64,000 nucleotides of DNA from Paracyclopina nana (lineage: Eukaryota; Arthropoda; Copepoda; Cyclopoida; Cyclopettidae): contig JAGUCH010000002.1 of NCBI GenBank assembly GCA_019096065.1, positions 10,800,501 to 10,864,500 of the forward strand. Reading direction: 5' to 3'. Positions 5,936 to 53,522 of this stretch are shown one piece after another. Within the stretch, counting starts at the first letter, position 1; each line of letters opens with the position of its first letter. The notes below the pieces were generated by a model. That model was given only the letters and a program-made list of their open reading frames with translations. It was not told where the DNA came from and ran no database searches. The position numbers were made by a program, and so were the translations under genes.

Positions 5936-6510
5936 CCCGAATTGTTACTGCTGAATATGCATGTACTAACATATGCAAAGTAAGATTGACTTGCCTAAAA
6001 CCACATGAAAGTTTAAGGGGATAAGCATGTATCTAGCTCAATCATCTAGCTTTAAATGCCTAATTTTGTGGTATTTCATATTTACATAAAAGAACCTACC
6101 AAAATACTCTGGTGTTACATGCCATGATCGTAGGCCTAGGTACGGTCTGTCACAGTAGGACAGGTCGTGGGCACCCTAAAAGTCTAGCACGTCAAAACAC
6201 GAAAGCTGCACGCCATTTGTTTCTTGACATGTGAGCCTTTGCAAAATAGTTCTCTTTTTCTTAGTTCTCTCTTAAATAGAATTAGGCAAATAAAATATGT
6301 AAGTAGAAATCTCTCTAGAATAGCAGTGTTCTTAAATTCTGTATGCTCGAAGGCATCTTTTTTTTCGCTCAATGTAATTTCTAATTTTGTAAGTTTTAAA
6401 ATGTCAAAACTCAAATGTGCGCAGTATTCTCTGAAACAAGGATTGCTTCCATCTCAGCGTGCGTTGTGCGTAAGATATCTGGGTAGATTCAATTTGAATA
6501 ATTGCATTAC

Positions 6511-6760
6511 CGCCAAAGTGAGCAATTGTTTCAGCCACGGCCTGATTGCATTCTTCTACTTGAGACAAGTCTTTCGTAATGACTATGGCCTCGAGGCAGC
6601 CATTTTGCTCGCACTTCGTGGCAACTTTTTTCAAGTCTTCAGCCCTTCTGCCCACCAGAGCTAGTTTTGTGTGAAACTGAGCCAGGTGCTCGGCAGCTCC
6701 AGCTCCAATGCCCGAGCTGGCGCCAGTGATGAGGACAACTTTTCCTTCAAGATCTGCCAT
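6511..6760 (-). pseudogene. Truncated tandem copy of the SDR gene (first exon only)
   Basis: This exon starts at ATG 6760 and encodes MADLEGKVVLITGASSGIG, the TGxxxGxG dinucleotide-binding motif of classical short-chain dehydrogenases. It continues to a GGCG|GTAATG donor at 6511/6510. It is exactly 250 nt, the same length and phase as exon 1 of the complete neighbour, and begins only 56 bp after that gene's stop. No exon with the NNAG, YxxxK or C-terminal parts follows in the remaining 6.5 kb on this strand. I read it as a partial tandem duplicate, probably non-functional; a distant or unassembled downstream part cannot be excluded. Confidence 0.7.
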
Positions 6761-6816
6761 CTAGAAGAGAGGGGAAAAAGTACCAAAGTAGCCGAGTGTA
6801 TTTTCAATGCTCTCGT

Positions 6817-8038
6817 TCAGCTAGGACATGCCACGCTACGACCGCCATCGATGGCCAAGGTTTGGCCGCATATGAAACTTGCGTCGGTGGAGGCCAGAAA
6901 CGCTATGGCCTTGGCCACTTCGTCTGGCCTTCCGCACCGACCCAGAGGATGGATCTTCTTGCTCTTTTCGTGCACGTAAGACTGGCTGGTCTTGGAAGAC
7001 ATGCCCGATTTGATGAACAACTCAGTGTCGATGACACCGGGATTCACAGAGTTCACTCGGATGCCTTTGGGAGCGAGCTCAAGCGCTGAGCATCGCGTCA
7101 ATTGGTCCAGAGCTGCTTTGGACAGCTATATGCAAGGGCTTCTGTGACTTGTGAAGATGGCGTTCTCTATCTACCCCTACACATTTTCTACAGCCTTACC
7201 TGGTGAAGCTTTCAAATTGGACGTTTAGACTGGGGTCACTCAAACGAAGCTGCCCTCAACAAAGTGCGCAACACGAACGAACACTTGTTCGACGACAACG
7301 TGTATCCTACTTTGATAACACGTTTCATGGCTTGAAAGCAACAACGAGCGTTGAAAAAAGAACGCTAGCTCTAAATGAGCCTCTTAATTAACAGGCTCCC
7401 CTAATTAAATGCTTTCATCGCAATTGCGCATTTGTTAGCGATTCTAAACGCAGCTAATTAACCTTGTACTAGTTTGGCAACTCCAATTGATCACCTATCG
7501 CAGAAGCCCCCTTCCCTTGTACGAAGTTGTTCCAGGATATGCTCGCAAGCCTGCAATGCTGGACACGTTGACTATGCTCTTAACGCTTGATTGCTCTAGC
7601 CACTTGACAGAGAGTTGAGTGAGCCTCATGGCGGATTTCACGTTGACATTCATGGAGTCATCAAATTGGGCAAATGTGGCCTTTTCCAGGTTGGCCATAT
7701 GCATGACTCCCGCATTGTTGACCAGAACATCCAGCCCTAGATGGAGAATCAAGCATCACTACTGCAATGGAAGTGCACTCGAAGTTACCGTTGAAGTGTC
7801 CCAGCGAATCGGCCATGGCCTCATCGCAGCCTTCGAGAGTTGACAGATCCTTGACGACGACAACCACGTCGGGTGAGCCTGATGCACGACACTGAGCGGC
7901 GACTTCCTCCAAATTCTCCCTGTTCCTGCCAACCAAAGATAGCCGACATCCGATGCTGGCAAAGTGAAGGGCGGTGGCCGCTCCAATACCAGCGCTTGCT
8001 CCAGTGATTAAAACGATCTTGTTTTCCAAGCCGGCCAT
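6817..8038 (-). CDS. Classical short-chain dehydrogenase/reductase, about 259 aa
   Basis: NAD(P)-dependent oxidoreductase of the classical SDR family; the substrate cannot be read from sequence. Model: exons 7789-8038, 7516-7736 and 6817-7125 (250, 221 and 309 nt, total 780). Visible parts in order: TGASAGIG cofactor motif near residue 12, NNAGVM, the INVSSIAG serine region, the catalytic Tyr-Lys pair, and NSVNPGVIDTELF then CGQTLAIDGG at the C terminus. The usual length is about 250-260 aa. I chose ATG 8038 over 8062 because the tandem copy starts at the same point. Oddity: intron 2 must start AAG|GGAAGG, with GG where GT is expected; only this junction keeps the frame and gives a YxxxK motif (Y-K-L-S-K). 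The gene may be a recent pseudogene or carry a base error. Confidence 0.8.
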
Positions 8039-8876
8039 TTCTGAACAATCATCATTTTTCAACAGAAAATATTACATTTTGAGAGCTTTCCATGCGGTAG
8101 TTTTTCTTGCCCAGTACATGCTTATGTTAGGTATCGGGATACAGTATTGTTATGTTCTATGATAGCTCAAAGCCCAAGGCTTTCAGTCCTCTCATGAGTA
8201 AATGCAACGCTTTGACATTTGCAAGTTGTATAAAATGATTAAGGATCTGGAACCAGATAATATTCGGTTCTGAAATATTCTTTGAGCTAGACCAATTTTT
8301 TATAACCCTGCAAGTAAGGCTTTTTAGGAGGAAATAAAAATAAACGAGTCAGAGAGTGCTCATATTATCAAACGATGCCTAAAAGAACTGTTTTGTATCG
8401 CCATCAACGCAAAGATACCACATCTAAGCATGGCCGTTTTCCAGCAGCTGAACTAACAGGATTCATTAGTTTAAATGTTGAAATCACTAAGGCTTGAGCG
8501 TTTGCAGCTAATGTTTTTAAAGTAATTGTAAGCATTACTCACCGGTTGTATTAGCGAAGGCCTGCTTCGCGCCTGTTGCCCTCACGGATCAGTAGGCACA
8601 CACGTGGCTGCTCGAGAAATGGAACCACTTTTTTTCAGGCATATTCGTCTAGAGACTCAGAGCACAAATGTTTGGATAACAACAATTTAAATGCCATGCC
8701 AACACTTATTATCGCAATTATGAAAATTGTCTAGTTTGGCTTAGTGAAAAGTGTGGAAAAATGGCTGATGAGAGCTTTTCTCTGATTCTTAGGGAGCTTT
8801 GGAGTCGGGCTCTGGTCAACGGCTCGATTCATGCAAATCAGCTGACAACGTCAAAGTCAGTGTTATTATTGCAAAA
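8039..8876. other. Divergent spacer between the SDR gene and CERT
   Basis: About 840 bp between the start codons of two divergently transcribed genes, so it should contain both promoters. It is AT-rich. I see no repeat shared with other parts of the window and no clear TATA box at a convincing distance from either start. Confidence 0.4.
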
Positions 8877-32399: not shown

Positions 32400-33850
32400 G
32401 GCCAAACAAATTTGCCTGAGTACTTAACTCTGATATTTTTTATCTGTCTATCTTTTTGGGTGGGATTGGGTGGACTAGAACTGCAAACCATGTTCTCCGC
32501 TTTGAATCGCAGTTGGGCTTGTCAGGGAAATTTCGTTTTTACCGAGGTCAAGTGAACCAGGGTTTGCTGAGCAATTGGCGGCCAAAAAAAAATTTGCCTC
32601 ATGCCAAAGTACCTGACTCTGATATTTTTTATCTGTCTTTCTTTTTGGGTGGGATCATTGGGATCATTTGGGATCAAATGTGTACTAGAACTGCAAACTG
32701 TGTTCTCCGCTTTGAATCGCGGTTTGGCTTGTCAGGGAAATTTCGTTTTTACCGAGGTCAAGTGAACCGGGGTTTGCTGAGCAATTCGCAGCCAAAAAAA
32801 AATTTGCCTCATGCCAAAGTACCTGACTCTGATATTTTTTATCTGTCTTTCTTTTTGGGTGGGATCATTGGGATCATTTGGGATCAAATGTGTACTAGAA
32901 CTGCAAACTGTGTTCTCCGCTTTGAATCGCGGTTTGGCTTGTCAGGGAAATTTCGTTTTTACCGAGGTCAAGTGAACCGGGGTTTGCTGAGCAATTGGCG
33001 GCCAAAAAAAAATTTGCCTCATGCCAAAGTACCTGACTCTGATATTTTTTATCTGTCTTTCTTTTTGGGTGGGATCATTGGGATCATTTGGGATCAAATG
33101 TGTACTAAAACTGCAAACCGTGTTCTCCGCTTTGAATCGCGGTTGGGCTTGTCAGGGAAATTTCGTTTTTACCGAGGTCAAGTCAACCGGGGTTTGCTGA
33201 GCCATTTGCGGCCAAAAAAATTTGCCTCATGCCAAAGTACCTGGCTCTGATATTTTTTATCTGTCTTTCTTTTTGGGTGGGATCATTGGGATCATTTGGG
33301 ATCAAATGTGTACTAGAACTGCAAACTGTGTTCTCCGCTTTGAATCGCGGTTGGGCTTGTCAGGGAAATTTCGTTTTTACCGAGGTCAAGTCAACCGGGG
33401 TTTGCTGAGCAATTGGCGGCCAAAAAAAAATTTGCCTCATGCCAAAGTACCTGACTCTGATATTTTTTATCTGTCTTTCTTTTTGGGTGGGATCATTGGG
33501 ATCATTTGGGATCAAATGTGTACTAGAACTGCAAACCGTGTTCTCCGCTTTGAATCACGGTTAGGCTTGTCAGGGAAATTTTGTTTTTACCGAGGTCAAG
33601 TGAACCAGGGTTTGCTGAGCAATTGGCGGCCAAAAAAAAATTTGCCTCATGCCAAAGTACCTGACTCTGATATTTTTTATCTGTCTTTCTTTTTGGGTGG
33701 GATCATTGGGATCATTTGGGATCAAATGTGTACTAGAACTGCAAACTGTGTTCTCCGCTTTGAATCGCAGTTGGGCTTGTCAGGGAAATTTCGTTTTTAC
33801 CGAGGTCAAGTGAACCGGGGTTTGCTGAGCAATTGGCGGCCAAAAAAAAA
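32400..33850 (+). repeat. 210-bp tandem repeat, left arm, 7 copies
   Basis: Copies of 'gttctccgctttgaatcgc' occur near 32488, 32702, 32912, 33122, 33330, 33540 and 33750, a period of 210 bp with one unit of 208. Each unit contains 'gggatcattgggatcatttg' 'ggatca' and 'tcagggaaatttcgttttta'. Because 210 is a multiple of three, one frame stays open for up to 264 codons; this is a by-product of the repeat, not a supported protein. Confidence 0.9.
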
Positions 33851-34079
33851 TTGCTTAAGCACCTGACAGGATGGCTTTTGGTACCAATATGCAATAGAGC
33901 GATTCTTTTATCAAAATCTAAAAAAATCTTTTTACAAATACCAGATATTTGCAAATATAAGCAAAATATCACGCATTATTTTGTTGATATTTTCGCATGT
34001 GAACAGGGCCTTAATTGCGCATGTCAAAAATGCATTTTCAGCTTTATTACTGTGCTACATAAGCATGCAGTTAAGTACC

Positions 34080-36830
34080 GCGCGATGCGCAAGTTTTCTC
34101 TCTTGCGAATTTAAAATGAGTCAAAAGTTTGACTTTGTCTCATATTTTGAGTCAAGTTGACTCAAACTATCGCCTGCAACTGATATTTTGACTCAAAATT
34201 GACTTGGTCAAGAATTTCGTGTTTTATTAGCAGTTAAGTAGAAGTACCGCGATGCGCAAGCTTTCTCTCTTGCGACTAAAATAAGTCAAAAGTTTGACTT
34301 TGTCTCATTTTTTGAGTCAAGTTGACTCAAACTATCGCCTGCAACTGACATTTTGACTCAAAATTGACTTGGTCAAGAATTTCGTGTTTTATTAGCAATT
34401 AGGTAGAAGTACTGCGCGATGCGCAAGTTTTCTCTCTGGCGAATTTAAAATGAGTCAAAAGCTTTGACTTTGCCTCATATTTTGAGTCAAGTTAACTCAA
34501 ACTATCACCTGCAACTGACATTTTGACTCAAAATTGACTTGGCTCAAGAATTTCGTGTTTTATTAGCAATTAGGTAGAAGTACTGCGCGATGCGCAAGTT
34601 TTCTCTCTGGCGAATTTAAAATGAGTCAAAAAGTTTGACTTTGCCTCATATTTTGAGTCAAGTTGACTCAAACTATCGCCTGCAACTGATATTTTGACTC
34701 AAAATTGACTTGGTCAAGAATTTCGTGGTTTTATTAGCAGTTAAGTAGAAGTACCGTACGATGCGCAAGCTTTCTCTCTTGCGAATTCAAAATAAGTCAA
34801 AAGTTTGACTTTGTCTCATATTTTGAGTCAAGTTGACTCAAACTATCGCCTGCAACTGATATTTTGACTCAAAATTGACTTTGTCAAGAATTTCGTGGTT
34901 TTATTAGCAGTTAAGTAGAAGTACCGCGCAATGCGCAAGCTTTCTCTCTTGCGAATTCAAAATAAGTCAAAAGTTTGACTTTGTCTCATATTTTGAGTCA
35001 AGTTGACTCAAACTATCGCCTGCAACTGATATTTTGACTCAAAATTGACTTTGTCAAGAATTTCGTGGTTTTATTAGCAGTTAAGTAGAAGTATCACCGC
35101 TGCGATGCGCAAGCTTTCTCTCTTGCGAATTCAAAATAAGTCAAAAGTTTGACTTTGCCTCATATTTTGAGTCAAGTTGACTCAAACTATCGCCTGCAAC
35201 TGATATTTTGACTCAAAATTGACTTTGTCAAGAATTTCGTGGTTTTTTTAGCAGTTAAGTAGAAGTACTGCGCGATGCGCAAGCTTTCTCTCTTGCGAAT
35301 TCAAAATAAGTCAAAAAGTTTGACTTTGTCTCATATTTTGAGTCAAGTTGACTCAAACTATCGCCTGCAACTGACATTTTGACTCAAAATTGACTTGGTC
35401 AAGAATTTCGTGGTTTTATTAGCAGTTAAGTAGAAGTATCACGCGATGCGCAAGCTTTCTCTCTTGCGAATTCAAAATAAGTCAAAAGTTTGACTTTGTC
35501 TCATATTTGAGTCAAGTTGACTCAAAACTATCGCCTGCAACTGATATTCTGACTCAAAATTGACTTGGTCAAGAATTTCGTGTTTTATTAGCAATTAAGT
35601 AGAAGTACTGCGCGATGCGCAAGTTTTCTCTCTGGCAAATTTAAAATGAGTCAAAAGTTTGACTTTGCCTCATATTTTGAGTCAAGTTAACTCAAACTAT
35701 CAACTGCAACTGACATTTTGACTTAAAATTGACTTTGTCAAGAATTTCGTGGTTTTATTAGCAATTAAGTAGAAGTACCACGCGATGCGCAAGTTTTCTC
35801 TCTGGCGAATTTAAAATGAGTCAAAAGTTTGACTTTGTCTCATATTTTGAGTCAAGTTGACTCAAACTATCGCCTGCAACTGATATTTTGACTCAAAATT
35901 GACTTGGTCAAGAATTTCGTGTTTTATTAGCAGTTAAGTAGAAGTACTGCGCGATGCGCAAGTTTTCTCTCTGGCGAATTTAAATGAGTCAAAAGTTTGA
36001 CTTTGCCTCATTTTTTGAGGCAATTTAACTCAAACTATCGCCTGCAACTGACATTCTGACTGAACATTGACTTGGTCAAGAATTTCGTGTTTTATTAGCA
36101 GTTAAGTAGAAGTATCTGCGCGATAAGCTTTCTCTCTTGCGAATTAAAAATAAGTCAAAAGTTTGACTTTGTCTCATATTTTGAGTCAAGTTGACTCAAA
36201 CTATCGCCTGCAACTGATATTCTGACTTAAAATTGACTTGGTCAAGAATTTTGTATCTTATTAGCAATTAAGTAGAAGTACCGCGCGATGCGCAAGTTTT
36301 CTCTCTGGCGAATTTAAAATGAGTCAAAAAGTTTGACTTTGTCTCATATTTTGAGTCAAGTTGACTCAAACTATCGCCTGCAACTGATATTTTGACTCAA
36401 AATTGACTTGGTCAAGAATTTCGTGTTTTATTAGCAGTTAAGTAGAAGTACTGCGCGATGCGCAAGTTTTCTCTCTGGCGAATTTAAAATGAGTCAAAAG
36501 TTTGACTTTGCCTCATTTTTTGAGTCAAGTTGACTCAAACTATCGCCTGCAACTGACATTCTGACTCAAAATTGACTTGGTCAAGAATTTCGTGTTTTAT
36601 TTGCAATTAAGTAGAAGTACCGCGCGATGCGCAAGTTTTCTCTCTTGCGAATTTAAAATGAGTCAAAAGTTTGACTTTGTCTCATATTTTGAGTCTAGTT
36701 GACTCAAACTATCGCCTGCTATTGACATTTTGACTCAAATTTGACTTGGTCAAGAATTTCGTTTTTTATTAGCAATTAAGAGGAAGTACCGCGCGATGCA
36801 CAATTTTTGCTTAACTGCTATGTTACGCGA
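34080..36830. repeat. About 170-bp satellite, about 17 copies, foldback centre
   Basis: The unit is marked by 'gatgcgcaag' near 34085, 34252, 34420 and so on to about 36796, with a period of about 167-172 bp. Each unit carries the near-palindrome TGAGTCAAGTTGACTCA, then 'actatcgcctgcaactga', 'ttgacttggtcaagaatttc' and 'gttttattagcagttaagta'. Early and late copies are more diverged than the central ones. Non-coding. Confidence 0.92.
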
Positions 36831-36964
36831 GTTTCATTCCAAGCTCAAAAAGTTGCCGAAAAATATGCTAGTTTCAGTTACTTTTTGCACTAGGAGACTA
36901 GACTTGTCAAAACTAGGTGAATTTTGCTCTGGCAATAATACACGTTACGCGAGCAGTTCTTGAG

Positions 36965-39060
36965 CACATTTGATCCCAAATGATCCCAATGATCCCACCC
37001 AAAAAGAAAGACAGATAAAAATATCTGAGTCAGGCACTTTGGCATGAGGCAAATTTTTTTGGCCGCAAATGGCTCAGCAAACCCCGGTTCACTTGACCTC
37101 GGAAAAAACGAAATTTCCCTGACAAGCCCAACCGCGATTCAAAGCGGAGAACACGGTTTGCAGTTCTAGTACACATTTGATCCCAAATGATCCCAATGAT
37201 CCCACCCAAAAAGAAAGACAGATAAAAAATATCAGAGTCAGGTACTTTGGCATGAGGCAAATTTTTTTGGCCGCAAATGGCTCAGCAAACCCCGGTTCAC
37301 TTGACCTCGGAAAAAACGAAATTTCCCTGACAAGCCAAACCGCGATTCAAAGCGAAGAACACGGTTTGCAGTTCTTGAACATATTTTGATCCCAAATGAT
37401 CCCAATGATCCCACCCAAAAAGAAAGACAGATAAAAAATATCTGAGTCAGGTACTTTGGCATGAGGCAAATTTTTTTTTGGCCGCCAATTGCTCAGCAAA
37501 CCCCGGTTCACTTGACCTCGGTAAAAACGAAATTTCCCTGACAAGCCCAACCGCGATTCAAAGCGGAGAACACGGTTTGCAGTTCTAGTACACATTTGAT
37601 CCCAAATGATCCCAATGATCCCACCCAAAAAGAAAGACAGATAAAAATATCAGAGTCAGGTACTTTGGCATGAGGCAAATTTTTTTGGCCGCAAATGGCT
37701 CAGCAAACCCCGGTTCACTTGACCTCGGAAAAAACGAAATTTCCCTGACAAGCCCAACTGCGATTCAAAGCGGAGAACACGGTTTGCAGTTCTTGAACAT
37801 ATTTTGATCCCAAATGATCCCACTGATCCCACCCAAAAAGAAAGACAGATAAAAAATATCAGAGTCAGGTACTTTGGCATGAGGCAAATTTTTTTTTGGC
37901 CGCCAATTGCTCAGCAAACCCCGGTTCACTTGACCTCGGTAAAAACGAAATTTCCCTGACAAGCCCAACCGCGATTCAAAGCGGAGAACACGGTTTGCAG
38001 TTCTAGTACACATTTGATCCCAAATGATCCCAATGATCCCACCCAAAAAGAAAGACAGATAAAAATATCTGAGTCAGGTACTTTGGCATGAGGCAAATTT
38101 TTTTGGCCGCAAATGGCTCAGCAAACCCTGGTTCACTTGACCACGGAAAAAACAAAATTTCCCTGACAAGCCAAACCGCGATTCAAAGCGGAGAACACGG
38201 TTTGCAGTTCTTGAACATATTTTGATCCCAAATGATCCCAATGATCCCACCCAAAAAGAAAGACAGATAAAAAATAGGGGAGTCCGGTTCTTGGGCATGA
38301 GGCGAAGTTTTTTCTTGGCCTCGAATTGCTCAGCAAACCCCGGTTGACTTGACCTCGGAAAAAATGAAAAGTCCCTTACAATCCCAACCGTGATTCAAAG
38401 CGTAGAACACGGTTTGCAGTTCTTGTTCCCATTTTGATCCCAAATGATCCCAATGATCCCACCCAAAAGGAAAGACAGATAAAAAATATGGGAGTCCGGT
38501 ACTTGGGGGTGAGGCAAAGTTTTTTTTGGCTGCGAATTGCTCAGCAAACCCCAGTTGACTTGACCTCAGAAAAAATGAAAAGTCCCAGATAATGCCAACC
38601 GTGATTCAAAGCGGAGAACACAGTTTGCAATTCTTGTTCCCATTTTGATCCCAAATGATCCCAATGATCCCACCCAAAAGGAAAGACAGATAAAAAATAT
38701 GGGAGTCCGGTACTTGGGGGTGAGGCAAAGTTTTTTTTGGCTGCGAATTGCTCAGCAAACCCCAGTTGACTTGACCTCAGAAAAAATGAAAAGTCCCAGA
38801 TAATGCCAACCGTGATTCAAAGCGGAGAACACAGTTTGCAATTCTTGTTCCCATTTTGATCCCAAATGATCCCAATGATCCCACCCAAAAGGAAAGACAG
38901 ATAAAAAATATGGGAGTCCGGTACTTGGGGGTGAGGCAAAGTTTTTTCTTGGCCTCGAATCGCTCAGCAAACCCCGGTTGACTTGACCTCGGAAAAAATG
39001 AAAAGTCCCTGACAAGCCCAACCGTGATTCAAAACAGAGAACACGGTTTGCAGTTCTTGA
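36965..39060 (-). repeat. 210-bp tandem repeat, right arm, about 10 inverted copies
   Basis: This is the reverse complement of the left-arm unit ('gattcaaagcggagaacacg', 'tgatcccaatgatcccaccc'), with copies near 37140, 37350, 37560, 37770, 37980, 38190, 38400, 38610, 38820 and 39030. The four outermost copies (from about 38270) share private changes ('gtcccagataatgccaaccg', 'gggagtccggtacttggggg'), so the array grew from at least two sub-variants. Confidence 0.92.
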
Positions 39061-44248: not shown

Positions 44249-46080
44249 ATGCATCTCGTGGACTTACTTACGCTAGCCTTGATAGCCATTGCACTAATTG
44301 CTTTAGTGCTGCGTAATTTATCACGATGGCTGGGTAAACAACCACCAGGTATGCGTTTTCCATTCATTGCCCTCAACATTGTCCTCTTGATCGTCTTCCT
44401 CAGGTCCCTGGAACATTCCTTTGATCGGGAGTGCCGTGGCACTGCTTGGAGCCAGCAAGAATCCTCTGAGGGAGCCATATGCGGCCATGGCTAACTTAAG
44501 CAGGAAGTACGGAGGAATCATGACGGTCGGCCTTGGCAATGAAACTTGGATAGTTCTGTCCGGATTGAAGGAGATCAAAGAGTTCTCGATGAAGTCTGAA
44601 GCGGTGTCGAGGCCAGTAATGCCTTCTCTTAACAGCCTGTATGCATTCAACGAGCAGCTAGGTGACTATGAGTTTGCAGTCGATTGCAAGTTCTGATGGA
44701 CTTGAGTCATTAGGAGTCATATTCGCTGATGGACGTCTTTGGAGTGACCAACGAAGGTTCATGGCGAAATCCTTGAAAGTGATCCAAACTGGCTACAAAC
44801 CTTTTGGTGAGCATATCATGGACGAATTCAATCTGTTTCGAGCTCATCTTCTTGACGAAAGTGCAAAAGTAAGCAAATCGGCGCATAATCACTTGTTCAT
44901 ATATTTATCATTTATCCCGGCTTTTTTCCACTCCTTCGCAGTGTCCAGACTTTAATGGTCGTGACTTCTTCGACATTGCTTCCCTTAATATCATATGGCG
45001 GTTGGCTGTTGGTAAAACCTACGCAGTTTTCTAATTTGGAAAGGAGCTGTCCACTCTTGTTTCAGGCGAGCGGTTTGATTACAAGAGCAAGGTAGGCAAG
45101 GAAATGATCAACCACGTGGAAGCTTTTACCATGGAGCAAACGTTGGGCATCATTGGCGGCGTCGCCTACGCCAGGTACATGCCCTACTTGAGCGGTGTGT
45201 ATCGCTCCGTCGAAATGCATATGGAGAAGTTGCGCAAATTCCTGTGGGAGAAAGCCGTCAGCAGGGCAGAGCGTGGCAATGACGATGACTGCAACTACGC
45301 TGCCTTGTTCCACCAAAGCGAGGGCGAGTTCGCCACCAACAAGCAGTTGGTGGTTTCCCTTCTGGACTTTTTCACCGGAGGCTCCGGAACCGTGTCAAAG
45401 ACCATGTCGTTTGCGCTCCTATTTATGTTGCATTACCCCAAAGCTCAGGAGAAGGTCCGCAGGGAAGCCCTCGCCGTTGCTACTGACGAGGAGGAAATTG
45501 GCCTAGAGCATGCATCGAGCATGCCCTACACCGAAGCCTTTCTTCTGGAGGTGAGGGATTTTCTCGGGGACTAAGCCAAGTTAATGAAGCAATTGTGACG
45601 TAGGTGCAGCGTCTCGCTTCGGTGCTTCCCATCTGCCCGCCGAGAGTTGTGACGAAGGCCACTCAACTGAACGGGTACACCCTGCGGGAAGGCCAGAAAG
45701 TCCAGATGAACTTGTTCGCAATGCACCGCGATCCCGATCACTGGGGAGATCCTGAGAACTTTCGCCCTGAGCGATTTCTAGACGAGCAAGGCCGAGTTAC
45801 GGTGGATGAATGGCTTCAACCATTCGGTTACGGTAACATGAAATTTGGTCGTCATCATTCAAAAGTATTAAGGTTTGCTTGCATGACAGGCAAGCGAAAG
45901 TGCGTGGGCGAAAGTATTGCCAAAACCACCGTCTTCCTATTCATTTGTAACCTTGTGAAGCACTTTGATCTTCTCGCCCCGAAAGTCCTTCCAGGCACGG
46001 CCCCGAACGGTGGCTTAACTTTAACGCCGGAGAATTTTATTGTTCGACTGCAGCCACTACGCAAATCAGTTACACTTTAA
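44249..46080 (+). CDS. Cytochrome P450, CYP2-clan-like, 495 aa
   Basis: Haem-thiolate monooxygenase; substrate unknown. Exons 44249-44348, 44404-44661, 44714-44868, 44942-45011, 45066-45550, 45604-45832 and 45890-46080 total 1488 nt with consistent phases. Features: N-terminal membrane anchor (LLTLALIAIALIALVL), PPGPWNIPLIG proline hinge, IFADGRLWSDQRRF (helix C), K-helix EVQR, FRPERF and the haem loop FGYGKRKCVG with the ligand Cys. The I-helix reads FFTGGSGTVSKTMSF: the conserved Thr is present, but the acidic residue before it is Gly. The stop overlaps by 11 nt the end of the convergent Cys-rich gene; AATAAA at 46084-46089. Confidence 0.93.
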
Positions 46081-46492
46081 CGTAATAAATGGTCTCAGTG
46101 TTGGTGGCCACGGTGTAGTTGGCCAGCATCTTGGGCACCTGAATTCGAAAGGGCTCAAATGAAGCTCAGTCTTTCTGCTTGTAGCACTTACCAAGTGACA
46201 CTGCGTGTAGTTTTTCACGAAGAACGCTCCGCACTCGGTGTCCCTGCAAATGATCATAGCGTACACGAATCGCATGTATTTCATGCAAGTACCTAAAAAC
46301 GCTGCCCCGGTGCGTGCAGTAGTTTGCACATTCCGTATCGTAAGATGAGGTTAGTAGCGGCACGACGACGTGAAGCTTCTCATCCGGTTGTTTCATGCCC
46401 ACGTTGGGAGCGTAGGACAAGGTTGAAATCAAATCGCCTTGGATGATCCCAAGGAGGAGCAAGGTGAACGCGACGAGCAGAGAATATTGCAT
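46070..46492 (-). CDS. Small secreted Cys-rich protein, about 122 aa, with a frame break
   Basis: Exons 46192-46492 and 46070-46138. Signal peptide MQYSLLVAFTLLLLGIIQG; mature part includes DTECANYC, then GTCMKYMRF, IICRDTECGAFF and NYTQCHL, and a short second exon with two N-glycosylation-like NxT sites. Exon 1 is one base too long for the frame; dropping one G from the GGGG run (plus CCCC, 46305-46308) joins CANYCTHR to AAFLGTCMKYM and keeps seven cysteines in one protein. As written, the frame runs to a stop without the later cysteines. Family unknown. Its stop lies inside the last codons of the P450 on the other strand; its polyadenylation signal (plus 'tttatt', near 46036-46042) lies further inside the P450 exon. 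Confidence 0.65.
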
Positions 46493-46656: not shown

Positions 46657-47018
46657 TTAATCCTCGCTGCTGCCAAGATAGTCGACCAGCATGTCGGACC
46701 GATCACGGAGGGGCTCGTTTCTTCTAACAGGGTGTTGCCGGTGATCCCAGGGCTCCGCCCAACTTGGCCTCGCTTTGTCTGACCTCAACGTCCTCAGCAG
46801 CCGGTACAGGTCCTTGGACTGATCTGGCCGCTTGTCCAGTCCGCTCATTGCCTGGCCTAATCAGAGTTGGGAAATGAGTTGCATATTGAGATGTTTGAAA
46901 TCAATGACTCACTTTGGTGGTACGGCGCCGCGTAGTACCCGTTTGGGGTGGCCTCTGCCCACAACGCGAACAAGAGCGCGGCGGATGCGAGGAAAAAAAG
47001 CACTTTGCCCAGCCCCAT
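46657..47018 (-). CDS. Secreted peptide precursor A, one LYRLLRTLRS motif
   Basis: Exons 46913-47018 and 46657-46856 (306 nt, 101 aa; intron phase 1). Signal peptide MGLGKVLFFLASAALLFALW ending in EA; then a short spacer with a dibasic site (GLDKR), the peptide PDQSKDLYRLLRTLRSDKAR, a second dibasic site (HPVRR) and an acidic C terminus (LVDYLGSSED). The LxRLLRTLRS core matches the repeated motif of the next gene upstream (B). Layout fits a neuropeptide or peptide-hormone precursor, but no known family is recognised and no amidation Gly follows the core. TATA box at 47061-47068. Confidence 0.75.
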
Positions 47019-47060
47019 CGTGTGGAATGCGAGTGAATGCGAGACTGCGAGAACGCGGGC

Positions 47061-47068
47061 CTTATATA
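47061..47068 (-). promoter_or_regulatory. TATA box of precursor A
   Basis: TATATAAG on the minus strand, 43 nt upstream of the ATG at 47018. This implies a 5' UTR of only about 10-15 nt. The same box and spacing occur before precursors B and C. Confidence 0.7.
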
Positions 47069-47250
47069 GCAGGAGACCAGGTTCGCATGTCGCGAGCATT
47101 GAAATCTCAAGGGGGGTGCAGCGAGATAATTCCATTATTCGATGAAGAAAGGCCAAACTTCTTTTCCTTTGAATCCTCCCCGAGCAAATTTTATTGTGAT
47201 TCATGTAGTAATATAGCTTTGGAGAGCGCGCGCAGTAAATGTTAATAATA

Positions 47251-47836
47251 TTAGTCTTCGATGATGGACCTCAAAGAGCGCAAGTAGTGGTCTCGCGTCG
47301 TGGGCGTGGCCTCGTCCGCCCTCAAAGAGCGTAAGTAGTGGTCTCGCGTCGTGGGCGTGGCCTCGTCCGACCTCAGCGATCGCAAGTAGTGGTCCCTGGT
47401 CATAGGCGTGGCGGGGTCGGATTTGAGCGAGCGGAAGTAGTGGTCTCTCGTCGTCGTCTCGGCCTCTTTCTCGCTTCGTCTCAGCGATCGGAGGTAGTGG
47501 TCTCTGGCTGTGGTCGGGCCCGAGCGGAGCGTCCTCAAGTAGTGGTCCCTCTCCGTGTTCCGCCTGGCCTTGGCCTCGAGGACTTGGCGCACCGCGCGCA
47601 GAAAGTGATCAACCTTAAGTGGATTTGCATGGCAATGCATTTGTGAGGATGAAAAATGAGGGTAAAACCTGCGGCTCGCCGGATTGGACGGCTATTGGGC
47701 CGTCTGCAGTAAGAGAGGCCAGCTGCGACCAAAACGGCCCCCCAGCCTCCATGTCCTCGATTTCCTCGCTGTTGGCCTGCGCATAGTAGCAGGCGAGGCC
47801 TACGTGAAGCACGAAGAGCAGCTTCCGAAACGACAT
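47251..47836 (-). CDS. Secreted peptide precursor B, DHYLRSLR repeat
   Basis: Exons 47669-47836 and 47251-47613 (531 nt, 176 aa; intron phase 0). Signal peptide MSFRKLLFVLHVGLACYYAQA, then an acidic spacer. Exon 2 starts VDHFLRAVR (degenerate unit) and KARR, then six units: RDHYLRTLR, RDHYLRSLR, RDHYFRSLK, RDHYLRSLR, RDHYLRSLR, RDHYLRSLR. They are separated by 7-10-residue linkers such as SDEATPTT. The last unit is followed by SIIED and the stop. Multi-copy units behind a signal peptide are typical of neuropeptide precursors. However, most linkers lack classical dibasic sites, so processing would rely on single Arg or the units may act as one amphipathic chain. Family not recognised. Confidence 0.85.
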
Positions 47837-47876
47837 CTCCCTGCTGTCTGAGGTGAGCTGCAATCGCCGCTAGCCT

Positions 47877-47884
47877 CTTATATA
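47877..47884 (-). promoter_or_regulatory. TATA box of precursor B
   Basis: TATATAAG on the minus strand, 41 nt upstream of the ATG at 47836; same arrangement as in precursors A and C. Confidence 0.7.
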
Positions 47885-48051
47885 GACCCTTTTGACAAGT
47901 GACGAGGGACAAACATCGCCATCACCACGGAGATGTGGCGATTCACGAAAGGAGCAATCTGCTTCGCAGCGTAAGAAAAGGCCAGAGGCCAACGCAACCT
48001 CGGTGTATTATTTAATGAGTTTCATATTATGCGGTGAGTACGGAAAGGCGT

Positions 48052-49457
48052 TCAATCGGAGGAATGACGGATGGGAGGAGAAGATGTCGCATAGTTCAAA
48101 TTATTATCGCGCTGGCCGCCGCCGGCATGATTGATTTCGTCGCTTCGTTTCTGCTGCTCGTTTGTTGGCGGCAACGGCGGCGCGACGAGGCCGGTGGCGA
48201 ACGACGAGTTCACGAGGAGTCCAGAAGGTAGCATGAAAGGTAGCATTGATCTGCCCATGGGATAGGTTCCCGCTGCAATCAGCATCATTATTTTTGAGTG
48301 AATGATCTCATCTATTAAATGGGCTCTCCATTAGAGACATGAAGCTTTCACGAGCTTTCTCTTTGGTCATTTAGCAGTAGCCCGCGAGGGACTTTTGCGA
48401 CTAATAATGGCATTATTATACCTTTGCCGTTGGCTGCGAAAAAGAAATTGGCCGCTGCAGCCGCGGCGCTGAACCCTGGCGGCCCCGCTTTCTCCCGTTT
48501 CCTCCACTTGGCCCGCCTGTTTTGGAACCAGACCTGGAACGACAACGGCATTTCGCTGCATATCCTCCGATTGTTATTTCTTGTCTGATTAGCTGGCATT
48601 GTGCGGCGCTAAGCCGAAGCTTAACAATGTTTTCATTAGGAGAAGAGCCGCTCGGGAAGAAAGCTGCTGCAATTCAATTGCCGGCTAATTGACACAAAGT
48701 TGTTGACTTTACCTGAACTCGAGCCTCGCTGAGCTCCAGCCTCATGGCCAGCTCCTCTCGCGTGAACACGTCGGGGTATTGCGTTTTCTCGAAAGCCTGA
48801 ACAACGAAGCGTGGCGTCACTCAAAATTAAGCGGGACGAAAAGATTTTGCGTACCCTTTCCAATTGATGCAACTGAAAGGTGGTGAAGGTGGTTCGCGAC
48901 CTGCGAATTTTCCGCGGCGGAGGCTTCTCGCCCGAATCCGCGAGGCTGGCCGCGTCCTCCGTGGAGCCCTCCTCGGACTCTCGGCCTGCAGGGCGTAAGC
49001 GAGTTAATTCGGCGATTTATCTGCTATGCTGCACGTCGGATAAGATTTGCCCTAATGAGTGTTAATATCCGAGAGAGGATAAGCCTCGACTCGAGTAAAT
49101 GGCCGTCATTTGGTAGAGCGGAGATTTGCTCGTGATGTGAGCATAAGTGGCGGTAATTATTTCATTTCATCAAGGAGCTGCGAGCAACGTCGTAATCCGC
49201 TCTCCTCCTCGAATAATAATGGCACTAATGAAAATGAGCGCAATTGCGTCACCTTGTCCCGCTGCATGTCCTCCGCCGCGGCCGTGGGGGGCCACGCCGC
49301 CGGGGTTGAGCAAGTGGTGCCTCAGGTGGAGCAGGTGGAGGTGCAGCAAGTCCGCCGACGAGGGCTGGTCCTCGGCGGGCCTGCTGTTGCCGAGGATGAT
49401 GTCGATGCTGTGGGGGTTGCGCGAGGCTTTGCTCTCCGAAGCGCACGGTGGCTCCAT
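48052..49457 (-). CDS. hbn: Homeobrain-like paired-class homeobox protein, 250 aa
   Basis: Transcription factor of anterior brain patterning. Exons 49253-49457, 48855-48985, 48713-48796, 48422-48533 and 48052-48272; 753 nt, all phases agree. An octapeptide-like HSIDIILG lies near the N terminus. The homeodomain is spread over exons 2-4: [79 protein letters not shown] is diagnostic of Hbn as against Arx or Rx. Exon 5 ([19 protein letters not shown]...) is joined through donor GGCAAAG|GTATAA; without it the frame would stop at 48348. No OAR domain is seen. The N terminus is short, so a further 5' exon is possible. Confidence 0.9.
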
Positions 49458-49866
49458 GATGACTGATGCGTGAGATGGGGCGGGCGCAGCTCATCACGCG
49501 CACTTTGCCACCGCTCGGATCACATACGCATTCGCTAGCGCCGAGAGAGGTGCGAAAATTAAAATTGCTTTCCAAATTGGTATTGGTTTAGCTTCTCTGC
49601 CGGTGGCCATTCCATGCTGAGCTGGGAAGACGCGATGATGCCCCGAGGGGAACGCCAGGCCAAATTGAGCATCGTGTCCTTATTTGCTCAGACTCATTCG
49701 ACACAGAATGGAGATCTAATGAAATTCGGAAAGAAAGCAAATCAGCTCGAAGCAACAACGTGACAGAAATAACCGATGCTACACCCGTCTAACAAACACT
49801 CCAAGATGCAATACGACTCATTTATTAACGATCGCAAATAACGGCCACACAATGTCTGCGAGCCAT

Positions 49867-52000
49867 TCACATGGTCCGCACCAAATAGTGATTCTTCGTC
49901 CGCATCGTGCGAGAAACGGGCTTCGGCGACCGGCTCACCCGGCGGCCAACCATCGCCTCTGGACAATGACAGGCATCCTCTTCAAGCAGCTTTTCCTCCA
50001 TGGCGTCCCCCATCGAATCCTCCAGTCCCATGTCCTGATTTACAAGCAAAAAGGTTGATCATGGCCAATAAATTACCATTGACGGAAATGAAATCCCCAT
50101 TAATCGTATAATCGACACCAATTATCAAGTGTTGCTTTCATAAGATGAAATTACGATTTATTAATTTTGATAATTAGGGCAAGAAGAACCCAGCACAATT
50201 GCAACTTTTAATTTTGATGTACCAATCTTAAATTATCAGCTAACGGAAAAGTTATTGCAAGATCAGATTGAAGTGGGCTGAATTCAATTTCAGTTTATCT
50301 AATCTAATGATACTTGACTATTTAGTTAGATTACATTGGACTTTTGAAAATAGCTACATGAAAATGGACTTCTGCATGGCTGACTTTGGTAACACCGTAA
50401 CTTTGAGATTTAAAAAACTTTGCAATATAATTTGAAATACTTTGACCAAGATGACAATTTTTTTCCTTAACTTTTATACTTTCTTGGAACTTTCAACTTC
50501 TATTAGGTCATTGAAATTACAAACATTGACCATGGGGATTCCATCAGGCCTTCTCTTTGCTTTGTGGGCGAAATTGTGTAGGCCGGCGGAAAGTGAATCA
50601 TAGCTACCCGGAAAATTGCAATCACTTCAAATAAATCCCCAATTTGGCTTTTGCGTTAATTATGTGAGGACTTCATCTAAATCTTATTATTCATTGTATT
50701 TGATTTTTGTCGTTGTTATATAAGTCTCTGCCCAAAACTACCCATGTTTCATCACAAGTAATGTTATGATAAGGATGTCTACTAATATAGCATGATATCA
50801 GCCTCCACTCTTACTCAACATTTTGATTTTGATAATTGTTTTTACGAGCAAATTCAAGTGCTGGTTGGGACCTTTCATCAAACAAAGGCCAGTGAATGCG
50901 AGATATCGATGGCCTCATCAAGGCCCGTTTCTTAAAAGCTTCGGAGACTGTCCCTGAGACAAATGAGGCAAAAATCAATTCTAAGGCGGATCTTATTCAC
51001 CGAGTTGGCTTATTCTTGTACATTATCTAAATTCATTACCAAAAAAATAGTCTCTGTATTTGCACATTTCTAAAAGAGAGCCTGATTATGCTTTTAATTT
51101 GAGAAAAAAGACCTTACAAATTGAAGGAATTGAGAAAGATTAACACTTTCTCAATTTGCTGTAGTGCTAGAAATATTACATTTTGCTACTTGACAAAACC
51201 TGTCGGACAAATAACATTCTATTTGTCGGACATTTTACGACTATGACAAGCCAGTCGGGCAAAAAACGCAGTAGATGTTGGACTTTTCAACTAAGCGCTT
51301 CAGACATTTTGATTTTCGGACAAAAAAGTTCTCTTCTTTCAATTACTCAATAAGCTAAAATATATTTAAGTATTTATTTGTGCATTTAATAAAATTCTAA
51401 AAAAAGAGTGACTATAAAAACTCCAACGTTTCCGAAGCCTATTAAAACATACGATTTAAAAAAACCACCTGCAGTACAAATTGCTAGTTTTAAATAATAC
51501 TAAAAAGTTCAATGACCCCCTCAAAATGGAAAGTTCTGGGGAATTTTAGGGGCAAATTCACTAAATGCATAGTATGAACAGCCCGAAAGAAAATAATTAT
51601 TTACGTGTTAAATCAATTTAAGATTTTGAGAATAGTTACAAAATATCGAAGAGGCTTCAGAAAACGGAAAAGAGTGTGACCTGACCATAGGAGATAAGAA
51701 TTGGAGTTGCATTTTGGGGCAAGTTCACCTTAATTTTTCGTACTCACACTCGGGCTTTTAATAAAGTACAAAAAGGCTTACAGAAACTCCTCCGGGGGGT
51801 GTAGCTGCCCTAAGAGCACGAATCAAAAAGTCGTTTCGCATGACTCTTGTCAGCAATTGTTCGGCTGATCGCTTTCGGCCTCCTACGATTTGAAGAGTGG
51901 AAATCAAGTTTAAAAGAGCTGAAAATTGAATACCTTCTTCACCAGATGAGCAAGCAAATATGAGTGAGAGCAACCAAAGAATAGCTAATACTTTCGCCAT
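49867..52000 (-). CDS. Secreted peptide precursor C, two diverged motif copies
   Basis: Exons 51782-52000 (73 codons, phase 0) and 49867-50034 (56 codons with stop) give about 128 aa across a 1747-bp intron. Signal peptide MAKVLAILWLLSLIFACSS; then GGRKR (tribasic), SAEQLLTRVMRNDFLIRALR (first motif), and in exon 2 an acidic spacer, GRR and RTMRTKNHYLVRTM with the stop at its end (second motif). The junction is inferred from phase, donor TCT|GTAAGC, acceptor AATCAG|GAC, and the fact that both halves carry the motif found in A and B. If unspliced, exon 1 alone would end after 80 aa. TATA box at 52043-52050. The intron (50035-51781) is AT-rich; about 51180-51335 is a relative of the 24895-25860 repeat. 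Confidence 0.6.
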
Positions 52001-52042: not shown

Positions 52043-52050
52043 TTTATATA
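52043..52050 (-). promoter_or_regulatory. TATA box of precursor C
   Basis: TATATAAA on the minus strand, 43 nt upstream of the ATG at 52000, matching precursors A (43 nt) and B (41 nt). Confidence 0.7.
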
Positions 52051-52608
52051 CCCATTTCATGGCTAGAGCTTCAATAAAATAAGAATTTTTAGGATCACCC
52101 AAAAATTATACTTGAAATTAAGGTGTCCAAATTCTTGCAGGTGACTTCACTGACAAAATACTGGAACTTAGAATTAGGACATTTTGTAAAGGAAAACTAA
52201 TTTAAAAATGCTTCCAAAGAACCCCTAGCGTCGTAATGAGATGCATTGAAAAGTATTTTTTTGCAACCAAATGCATCTCGATGTATCTGTTTAAAATTCA
52301 CGGTTGTGCGCTCGGGCTGTTCCCGTGGGAATTGTGATTGTCAAAGTGGACCGCGCATTCGCGGAATGATTGGCCCGGTGACGTTCCGATCTGGGAATAG
52401 TCATAGGCGGGGGACTCTGGATCCCGAGAGACCTATCACGACGATCTCTGCACTTTGTCTTGGCCGTGCAAGTTCACTGATTTCAAGGTATCTCTTGACT
52501 GCTGATTGGCGACATCATGGCTGAGGTACTTAGTAGTAGGCCTGATGCTCAGGTAAAGGCTCAGCTGATTGAGAATCTCTCCTGAGCAGCGTCTTTCCCA
52601 CGTTACAG
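52051..52608. promoter_or_regulatory. Divergent spacer, precursor C and homeobox gene
   Basis: About 560 bp. The homeobox start ATG at 52609 directly follows 'cccacgttacag', a good splice acceptor, so an untranslated or short coding first exon may lie in this interval. No other element is named. Confidence 0.4.
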
Positions 52609-53522
52609 ATGGTAGTTGAACGTAGTGCTGCCGATGCTGACAGGTTCTCCTCCCCCTTTGATATTCCCATGGCAGACGACCACCATTATTCTTGCTCCGG
52701 ACCATCATCGGTGTCCGACGCTCACCTCTTCAGTTCACGTTGGTCAGCCATGCAGGACACATCTCAGATGTATTCGCAATACTTGGCCACTGCCAATGCT
52801 GTCACTAGACCAGCGTCGAAGGCTGAAGGTGGTGCCGAGTTCGATGCAGCCTACGACTCTTACTCCACGGATGTGCCCAACAGCAACAACAACAACAATG
52901 GTGGTGGAGGCAACCGCGACATGGCGACCTTTGGAGGTCAGCAGCATGGAGGCTACTGGTACCCCCAGCATCACTTCCCCAGCCCCTGGGCCATCATGAA
53001 CGGAGTACCTGGTTATTGCCAGTCTGCCGAGCCATTATACCCTGCTCAGCAGCAACCAGCTCACCATCACCAGCAGCCTCTGGCGCACCCCGTGGCACCG
53101 TACCAGCAGCCCCCTCATCATCAGCCAGAGGCTGCCATGTCGTCGGTGGCCTCTTGCAACTCGAGCCCACCGTCGAACGGCAGCTATGTGAGTGAGGGAG
53201 GGCATTATGTCAGTCACACAGACCTGGCTAAAGTCACGCTTAAAAAGCCAAGGGTTACGTTCTCGAGTCAGCAGGTGCTCATGCTGGAGCAGGAGTTCAA
53301 GGCGCAAAAGTAAGATTGCACGCAGCTCACCCCAATGCTTTAAACTAATCAGCTCATTTCAGTTACCTTTGCCGGCCTTTGAGGGCCAAGCTCGCGATGC
53401 AGTTGAACCTCACCGAACGCCAGGTGAAGATTTGGTTCCAAAACCGACGGATGAAGGCCAAAAAGGAGGCCTACCGAGCAGGCCAGCAGCAGCAGAAGAG
53501 CCAACTGTTACGAGTCGGCTAA
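52609..53522 (+). CDS. Divergent ANTP-class (Hox-like) homeobox protein, 286 aa
   Basis: Exons 52609-53309 and 53363-53522. A long N terminus rich in Ser, Asn, Gly, His, Gln and Pro is followed by a homeodomain starting [20 protein letters not shown] and ending [20 protein letters not shown]. The second half, with [15 protein letters not shown], is of Hox type; the first half and [16 protein letters not shown] are unusual. No YPWM-type hexapeptide is seen. Candidates are a fast-evolving Hox (Hox3/zen, ftz or Abd-B-like) or another ANTP gene; sequence alone does not decide. The intron splits homeodomain codon 24. Only about 15 residues follow the homeodomain. AATAAA at 53587-53592 lies before the convergent SLC38A7 stop. 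Confidence 0.85.

Follow-up and report, generated by a model that had tools for sequence, protein, structure and literature searches.

Three small TATA-box genes, clustered around a homeobox gene, that encode putative secreted peptide precursors

Three short minus-strand genes, here called A, B and C, lie close together in a 64 kb window (the whole stretch of DNA that was analysed), and the initial annotation took them for a locally duplicated family of secreted peptide precursors built on one common core. Are these genuine genes, are they kin, and what might become of their products? The window is a gene-dense eukaryotic stretch of 44.7% GC and, judging by its homeobox genes, the genome is of animal kind. 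Matches above the Pfam cut-off among the frames submitted include GPI2, YEATS, PH, START, Ig, SMN-type Tudor, acyl-CoA dehydrogenase, cytochrome P450, amino-acid transporter, LMBR1-like, BTB and short-chain dehydrogenase domains. Two homeodomains also score above their cut-off. One belongs to a minus-strand gene at about 48050-49470, between B and C, giving the minus-strand order C, homeobox gene, B, A; the other lies beyond C, on the plus strand at 52573-53522. The former looks homeobrain-like and the latter zerknuellt/Hox3-like.

Other features of the window deserve separate mention. Two adjoining short-chain dehydrogenase-like frames at 6407-8071 (minus strand) form an apparent tandem duplicate, with Pfam confirmation covering 6820-7125 only. 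Satellite-like tandem arrays occupy 32470-33852, 34073-36808 and 36953-39059, with units of approximately 210, 170 and 211 nt, respectively. The 210-nt unit is divisible by 3 and open in one frame, generating ORFs that reach 276 codons and resemble a protein but probably represent no real one. Immediately downstream of A, at 46070-46492 on the minus strand, is a small secreted-looking gene, D, with a signal-peptide-like start and cysteines; it has no Pfam match, looks PAN/apple-domain-like by eye, and has no TATA box listed ahead of it.

Gene anatomy and promoter layout

Gene A (46657-47018; exons 47018-46913 and 46856-46657) encodes 101 amino acids with one core-like stretch, DLYRLLRTLRS. Gene B (47251-47836; exons 47836-47669 and 47613-47251) encodes 176 amino acids with seven core units, and gene C (49867-52000; exons 52000-51782 and 50034-49867) encodes 128 amino acids that include a two-copy repeat of its own, NDFLIRALR and NHYLVRTM. 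The single intron in each is of the GT...AG type and keeps the frame; the introns measure 56, 55 and 1747 nt in A, B and C, respectively, and the splice donor of B, GTTTTA, is weak as judged by eye. Re-analysis recovered the coordinates and strand of all three, their signal-peptide-like starts, the frame-keeping introns and the seven units of B. The models hold up, and A, B and C look like genuine genes. The splice phases had been described as consistent, which is true within each gene but not between genes: the first exons, of 106, 168 and 219 nt, end in phases 1, 0 and 0, and the intron is therefore not at one common place in A, B and C. Within the long intron of C, at 50811-50957 (minus strand), a strong-looking acceptor (by eye) precedes an open stretch that includes a KKR site; its phase is mismatched to exon 1 of C, and it could be a chance occurrence or an alternative exon.

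A codon-composition model trained on 3801 codons from long frames of the window favours the sense frame in A (0.478 bits per codon, versus 0.39 in the best other frame), in B (0.685 versus 0.606) and in exon 2 of C (0.519), with the antisense frame close in A and B. Codon composition separates sense from antisense poorly in these GC-rich exons, and the argument therefore relies on the pattern of substitution in the repeats and on promoter anatomy. Exon 1 of C has a non-coding-like score of -0.274, so that its assignment depends on just three features: the TATA box, the start and the splice donor. The proteins begin with uncharged hydrophobic stretches whose 9-residue Kyte-Doolittle means are 2.44 (A), 2.53 (B) and 2.81 (C). 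The signal peptides are predicted by a simple hydrophobicity cut of 2.2; of the window's 694 open ATGs, 72 clear it, the starts of A, B and C among them.

What sets these three starts apart is the sequence ahead of them, a feature absent from the initial annotation. All three TATA boxes are on the minus strand: TATATAAG at 47061-47068, 50 nt before the ATG of A; TATATAAG at 47877-47884, 48 nt before the ATG of B; and TATATAAA at 52043-52050, 50 nt before the ATG of C. The window was screened for TATA[AT]A[AG] 38-62 nt upstream of an ATG opening at least 30 codons, with nested in-frame ATGs counted separately. Exactly three of the 694 ATGs pass, the starts of A, B and C, and all three are among the 72 signal-peptide-like ones. 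A stricter screen, confined to the first ATG after each stop, passes one start in 391, that of B alone; it misses A and C because both have an earlier in-frame ATG. For both, the later ATG was preferred on two grounds: the TATA box is a short way upstream of it, and the hydrophobic stretch begins there. The genes also end alike, with AATAAA 35, 55 and 40 nt after the stop codons of A, B and C against a strand background of 0.8 per kb. The near-identical TATA-to-ATG layout favours a common origin or common regulation of the three genes. Strongly expressed tissue-specific genes often pair a TATA box with a very short 5' leader.

The repeated core of B and the possible kinship of A and C

The units of B run in the order DHFLRAVR, DHYLRTLR, DHYLRSLR, DHYFRSLK and then DHYLRSLR three times over, the later ones falling in a 51-nt tandem array (47267-47454, minus strand; 3.7 copies, 82% matches). 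Among the first units the spacers differ while the core stays. For all pairs among six of the seven units (the first, degenerate one was omitted), the core RDHYLRSLR accumulates 66.5 synonymous differences at 94.2 sites (pS 0.706) and 31.5 nonsynonymous differences at 310.8 sites (pN 0.101), for a pN/pS ratio of 0.144; these pairs are not independent of each other. The core of B is clearly under purifying selection, the protein kept while the codons drift, as judged from units within one gene of one species. One segment departs from this pattern of drift: GACCACTAC, the bases that encode DHY, does not change among the six full units, while the Arg, Leu and Ser codons vary. In the training frames, GAC accounts for 66% of its codon pair, CAC for 62% and TAC for 82%, so that one would not quite expect GACCACTAC to be invariant; either an additional constraint or chance may lie behind it.

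Does this core extend to A and C? The claim that it is common to all three genes was overstated. The strict motif D-x-[YF]-L-R-[STA]-L-R occurs five times in B and not at all in A or C; A (DLYRLLRTLR) and C (NDFLIRALR and NHYLVRTM) match the core only with one or two inserted residues, and the second copy in C is without the final Arg. A loosened motif is reached in 175 of 20000 shuffles for A, none of 20000 for B and 1 of 20000 for C, in a test that is circular in that the motif was framed post hoc. Kinship was judged by local alignment of the parts following the signal peptide, compared with 2000 shuffles. The A-B score is matched by 15 shuffles (18 when B is the sequence shuffled); C-B is matched by 147, which is not significant (103 for exon 1 of C against B, 85 for exon 2), and C-A by 676. 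Exon 1 and exon 2 of C, aligned with each other, are matched by only 3. These scores indicate that A is probably related, as a single-copy diverged relative of B, and that C has a two-copy repeat of its own. The best C-B alignment pairs the two cores in part only, and C as a relative of B is doubtful; its tie to A and B comes mainly from promoter layout and place. A locally duplicated family, as first proposed, thus has moderate backing for A and B and weak backing for C.

There is a substantial chance, somewhat short of even, that at least one of A and C has no kinship with B and that the common core was picked by eye out of Leu/Arg-rich sequence, a reading compatible with any of the functional ones considered below. 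It draws on the missing strict motif, on the C-B and C-A scores, and on intron phases and positions that differ among the three genes; it must also accommodate an A-B score that few shuffles equal and a TATA spacing that, within the window, is found in A, B and C only.

Comparison with Pfam-A, the PDB and the main texts of papers places none of the three in a described family. In Pfam-A, A matches no family up to E 1, and the best scores of B (15 bits, cut-off 27.1) and C (11.9 bits, cut-off 20.3) fall below threshold. Neither B nor C has a PDB match by sequence at E up to 10; for A, a bacterial histidine decarboxylase at E 0.044 is weak and was taken as chance. Pattern searches with B returned 6 stretches in IMG/VR viral contigs and 35 in prokaryote genomes, none confirmed, in collections that are ill-suited to an animal gene. 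Strings from the core peptides are absent from the main texts of the papers searched, with the exception of 'DHYLR', which occurs in a paper on a scorpion chymotrypsin that was judged unrelated by its title; HYLR, LRSLR, LRTLR and FLIR are absent from the main texts of three papers on arthropod neuropeptides (PMC4888303, PMC7179676 and PMC4237046). Among Pfam, the PDB and paper main texts, then, A, B and C match no family. It is a tentative suggestion, with well under even confidence, that they constitute a lineage-specific, undescribed family whose core, DHYLRSL(R), would be cut at its own R-x-x-R end and which would have expanded locally, as one-copy A, two-copy C and seven-copy B, all sharing a promoter layout and grouped about a homeobox gene.

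Proposed processing of the B product

R-x-x-R is the minimal convertase pattern, and the R-[STA]-L-R that ends most copies of the core fits it. On the preferred reading, all three are genuine small genes driven by their TATA boxes, each encoding a secreted peptide precursor, and B is a multi-copy one. Its signal peptide would be removed first; a furin-like convertase would then cut after R-[STA]-L-R, and two RR sites would perhaps be cut as well. Cutting at every R-x-x-R yields segments of 43, 21, 15, 36, 17 and 17 residues and a five-residue tail, SIIED: that is, a 43-residue N-terminal segment and five predicted products of 15-36 residues. Each segment would have the core at its C-terminal end, as DHYLRSL(R) or near to it, for example in SDEATPTTRDHYLRSL(R), and would act outside the cell as a hormone, a paracrine signal or a gland secretion. 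The fourth unit ends in RSLK, so no cut is predicted there. A would most likely be a one-copy diverged relative; C, with its two-copy repeat, is the more doubtful member. To this proposal as a whole (B a cut multi-copy precursor, A a probable and C an uncertain relative) we assign a probability of roughly 0.5. The gene anatomy fits the description of secreted peptide precursors in all three cases, while selection on a repeated core is seen in B only.

In favour of the cutting, R-x-x-R occurs six times in B, twice in A (both inside the core) and four times in C (once inside the first core). Several observations weigh against it. As many R-x-x-R sites as B has arise in 495 of 10000 shuffles, a count little above chance for so Arg-rich a chain. 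Most units of B are bordered by a single Arg, where neuropeptide precursors typically have dibasic sites; past the signal peptide, dibasic sites in B are confined to RR at residues 73-74 and 101-102, the other units having single Arg or R-x-x-R, so that its copies are not each flanked by dibasic convertase sites. (A has KR and RR; C has RKR and RR.) The RSLK ending of unit four also counts against the proposal, and, for the part that concerns C, so do the C-B alignment score, the differing intron phase and position, and the non-coding-like codons of exon 1. The conservation of R-x-L-R could in part reflect processing and not the binding of a receptor, in which case that of DH[YF] needs another reason.

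These same facts, the two dibasic sites, the mostly single-Arg borders and the chance-like R-x-x-R count, speak for B as a secreted repeat protein that works uncut, be it in a gland, in saliva, in seminal fluid or in a matrix, with its units serving as binding or assembly modules and with A and C as other gland proteins of like promoter style. The TATA box and short leader, common in strongly expressed tissue-specific genes, would suit it, and its Thr/Pro-rich spacers, ATPTT for one, could be glycosylated. However, a conserved core amid differing spacers, as in the first units, is what multi-peptide precursors usually show, and we regard an uncut protein as rather unlikely. Structure prediction is uninformative on this point: single-sequence AlphaFold2 gives no confident fold for exon 2 of B (mean pLDDT 54.2, pTM 0.29), and for exon 2 of A the mean pLDDT is 64.0. 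These low-confidence models, too weak to support a fold search, draw helices in both. The alternative first entertained, of amphipathic-helix proteins, does not hold across the units. The helical hydrophobic moment exceeds that of shuffles in two of five stretches, A (p 0.036) and the first unit of B (p 0.001), but not in the main unit of B (p 0.47) or in the first and second copies of C (p 0.91 and 0.38).

Known precursors and the meaning of the cluster

The secreted multi-copy peptide precursor is a well-known kind. The precursor of the locust salivation-stimulating peptide (PMC4237046) resembles B in having a signal peptide, two coding exons and many copies (about 12) of a short peptide; it differs in that Lys-Arg separates the copies, which show no nucleotide substitution, whereas B has mostly single Arg and drifted codons. 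Yeast alpha-factor (PMC5850478) carries several copies of a signalling peptide in one secreted polyprotein; here layout alone is compared. Two immune systems have tandem related peptides within one secreted precursor with Arg sites (RXRR, RR or RxxR), as in B: Baramicin A, with tandem peptides between furin sites (PMC8423362), and the hymenoptaecin/apidaecin precursors, where hymenoptaecin multipeptides have RR or RxxR sites, RxxR being named as a predicted processing site, along with short acidic EAEP spacers (PMC3415428).

The likeness of layout, signal peptide, repeats, spacers and Arg sites could make B an immune multipeptide precursor of this sort. B is unlike them, however, in having no Pfam match above the cut-off and in its core, which is not cationic: the stretch TRDHYLRSLRSDE has a net charge of 0 and a helical amphipathicity not beyond that of shuffles. 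In addition, no kappaB-like GGGRNNYYCC occurs within 400 nt upstream of any of the three genes; a looser GGGRNWYYYY has one match, upstream of C, against a window average of 0.22 per 400 nt. An immune precursor is thus improbable, and an antimicrobial role for B is not favoured.

Short secreted precursors evolve fast and are readily missed in similarity searches. The combination of a TATA box 38-62 nt upstream with an open frame of at least 30 codons might help to find further genes of this type. If A, B and C are gland proteins, they would be an ordinary find; should the core peptide prove to be a signal, there would be a new ligand for matching with orphan receptors.
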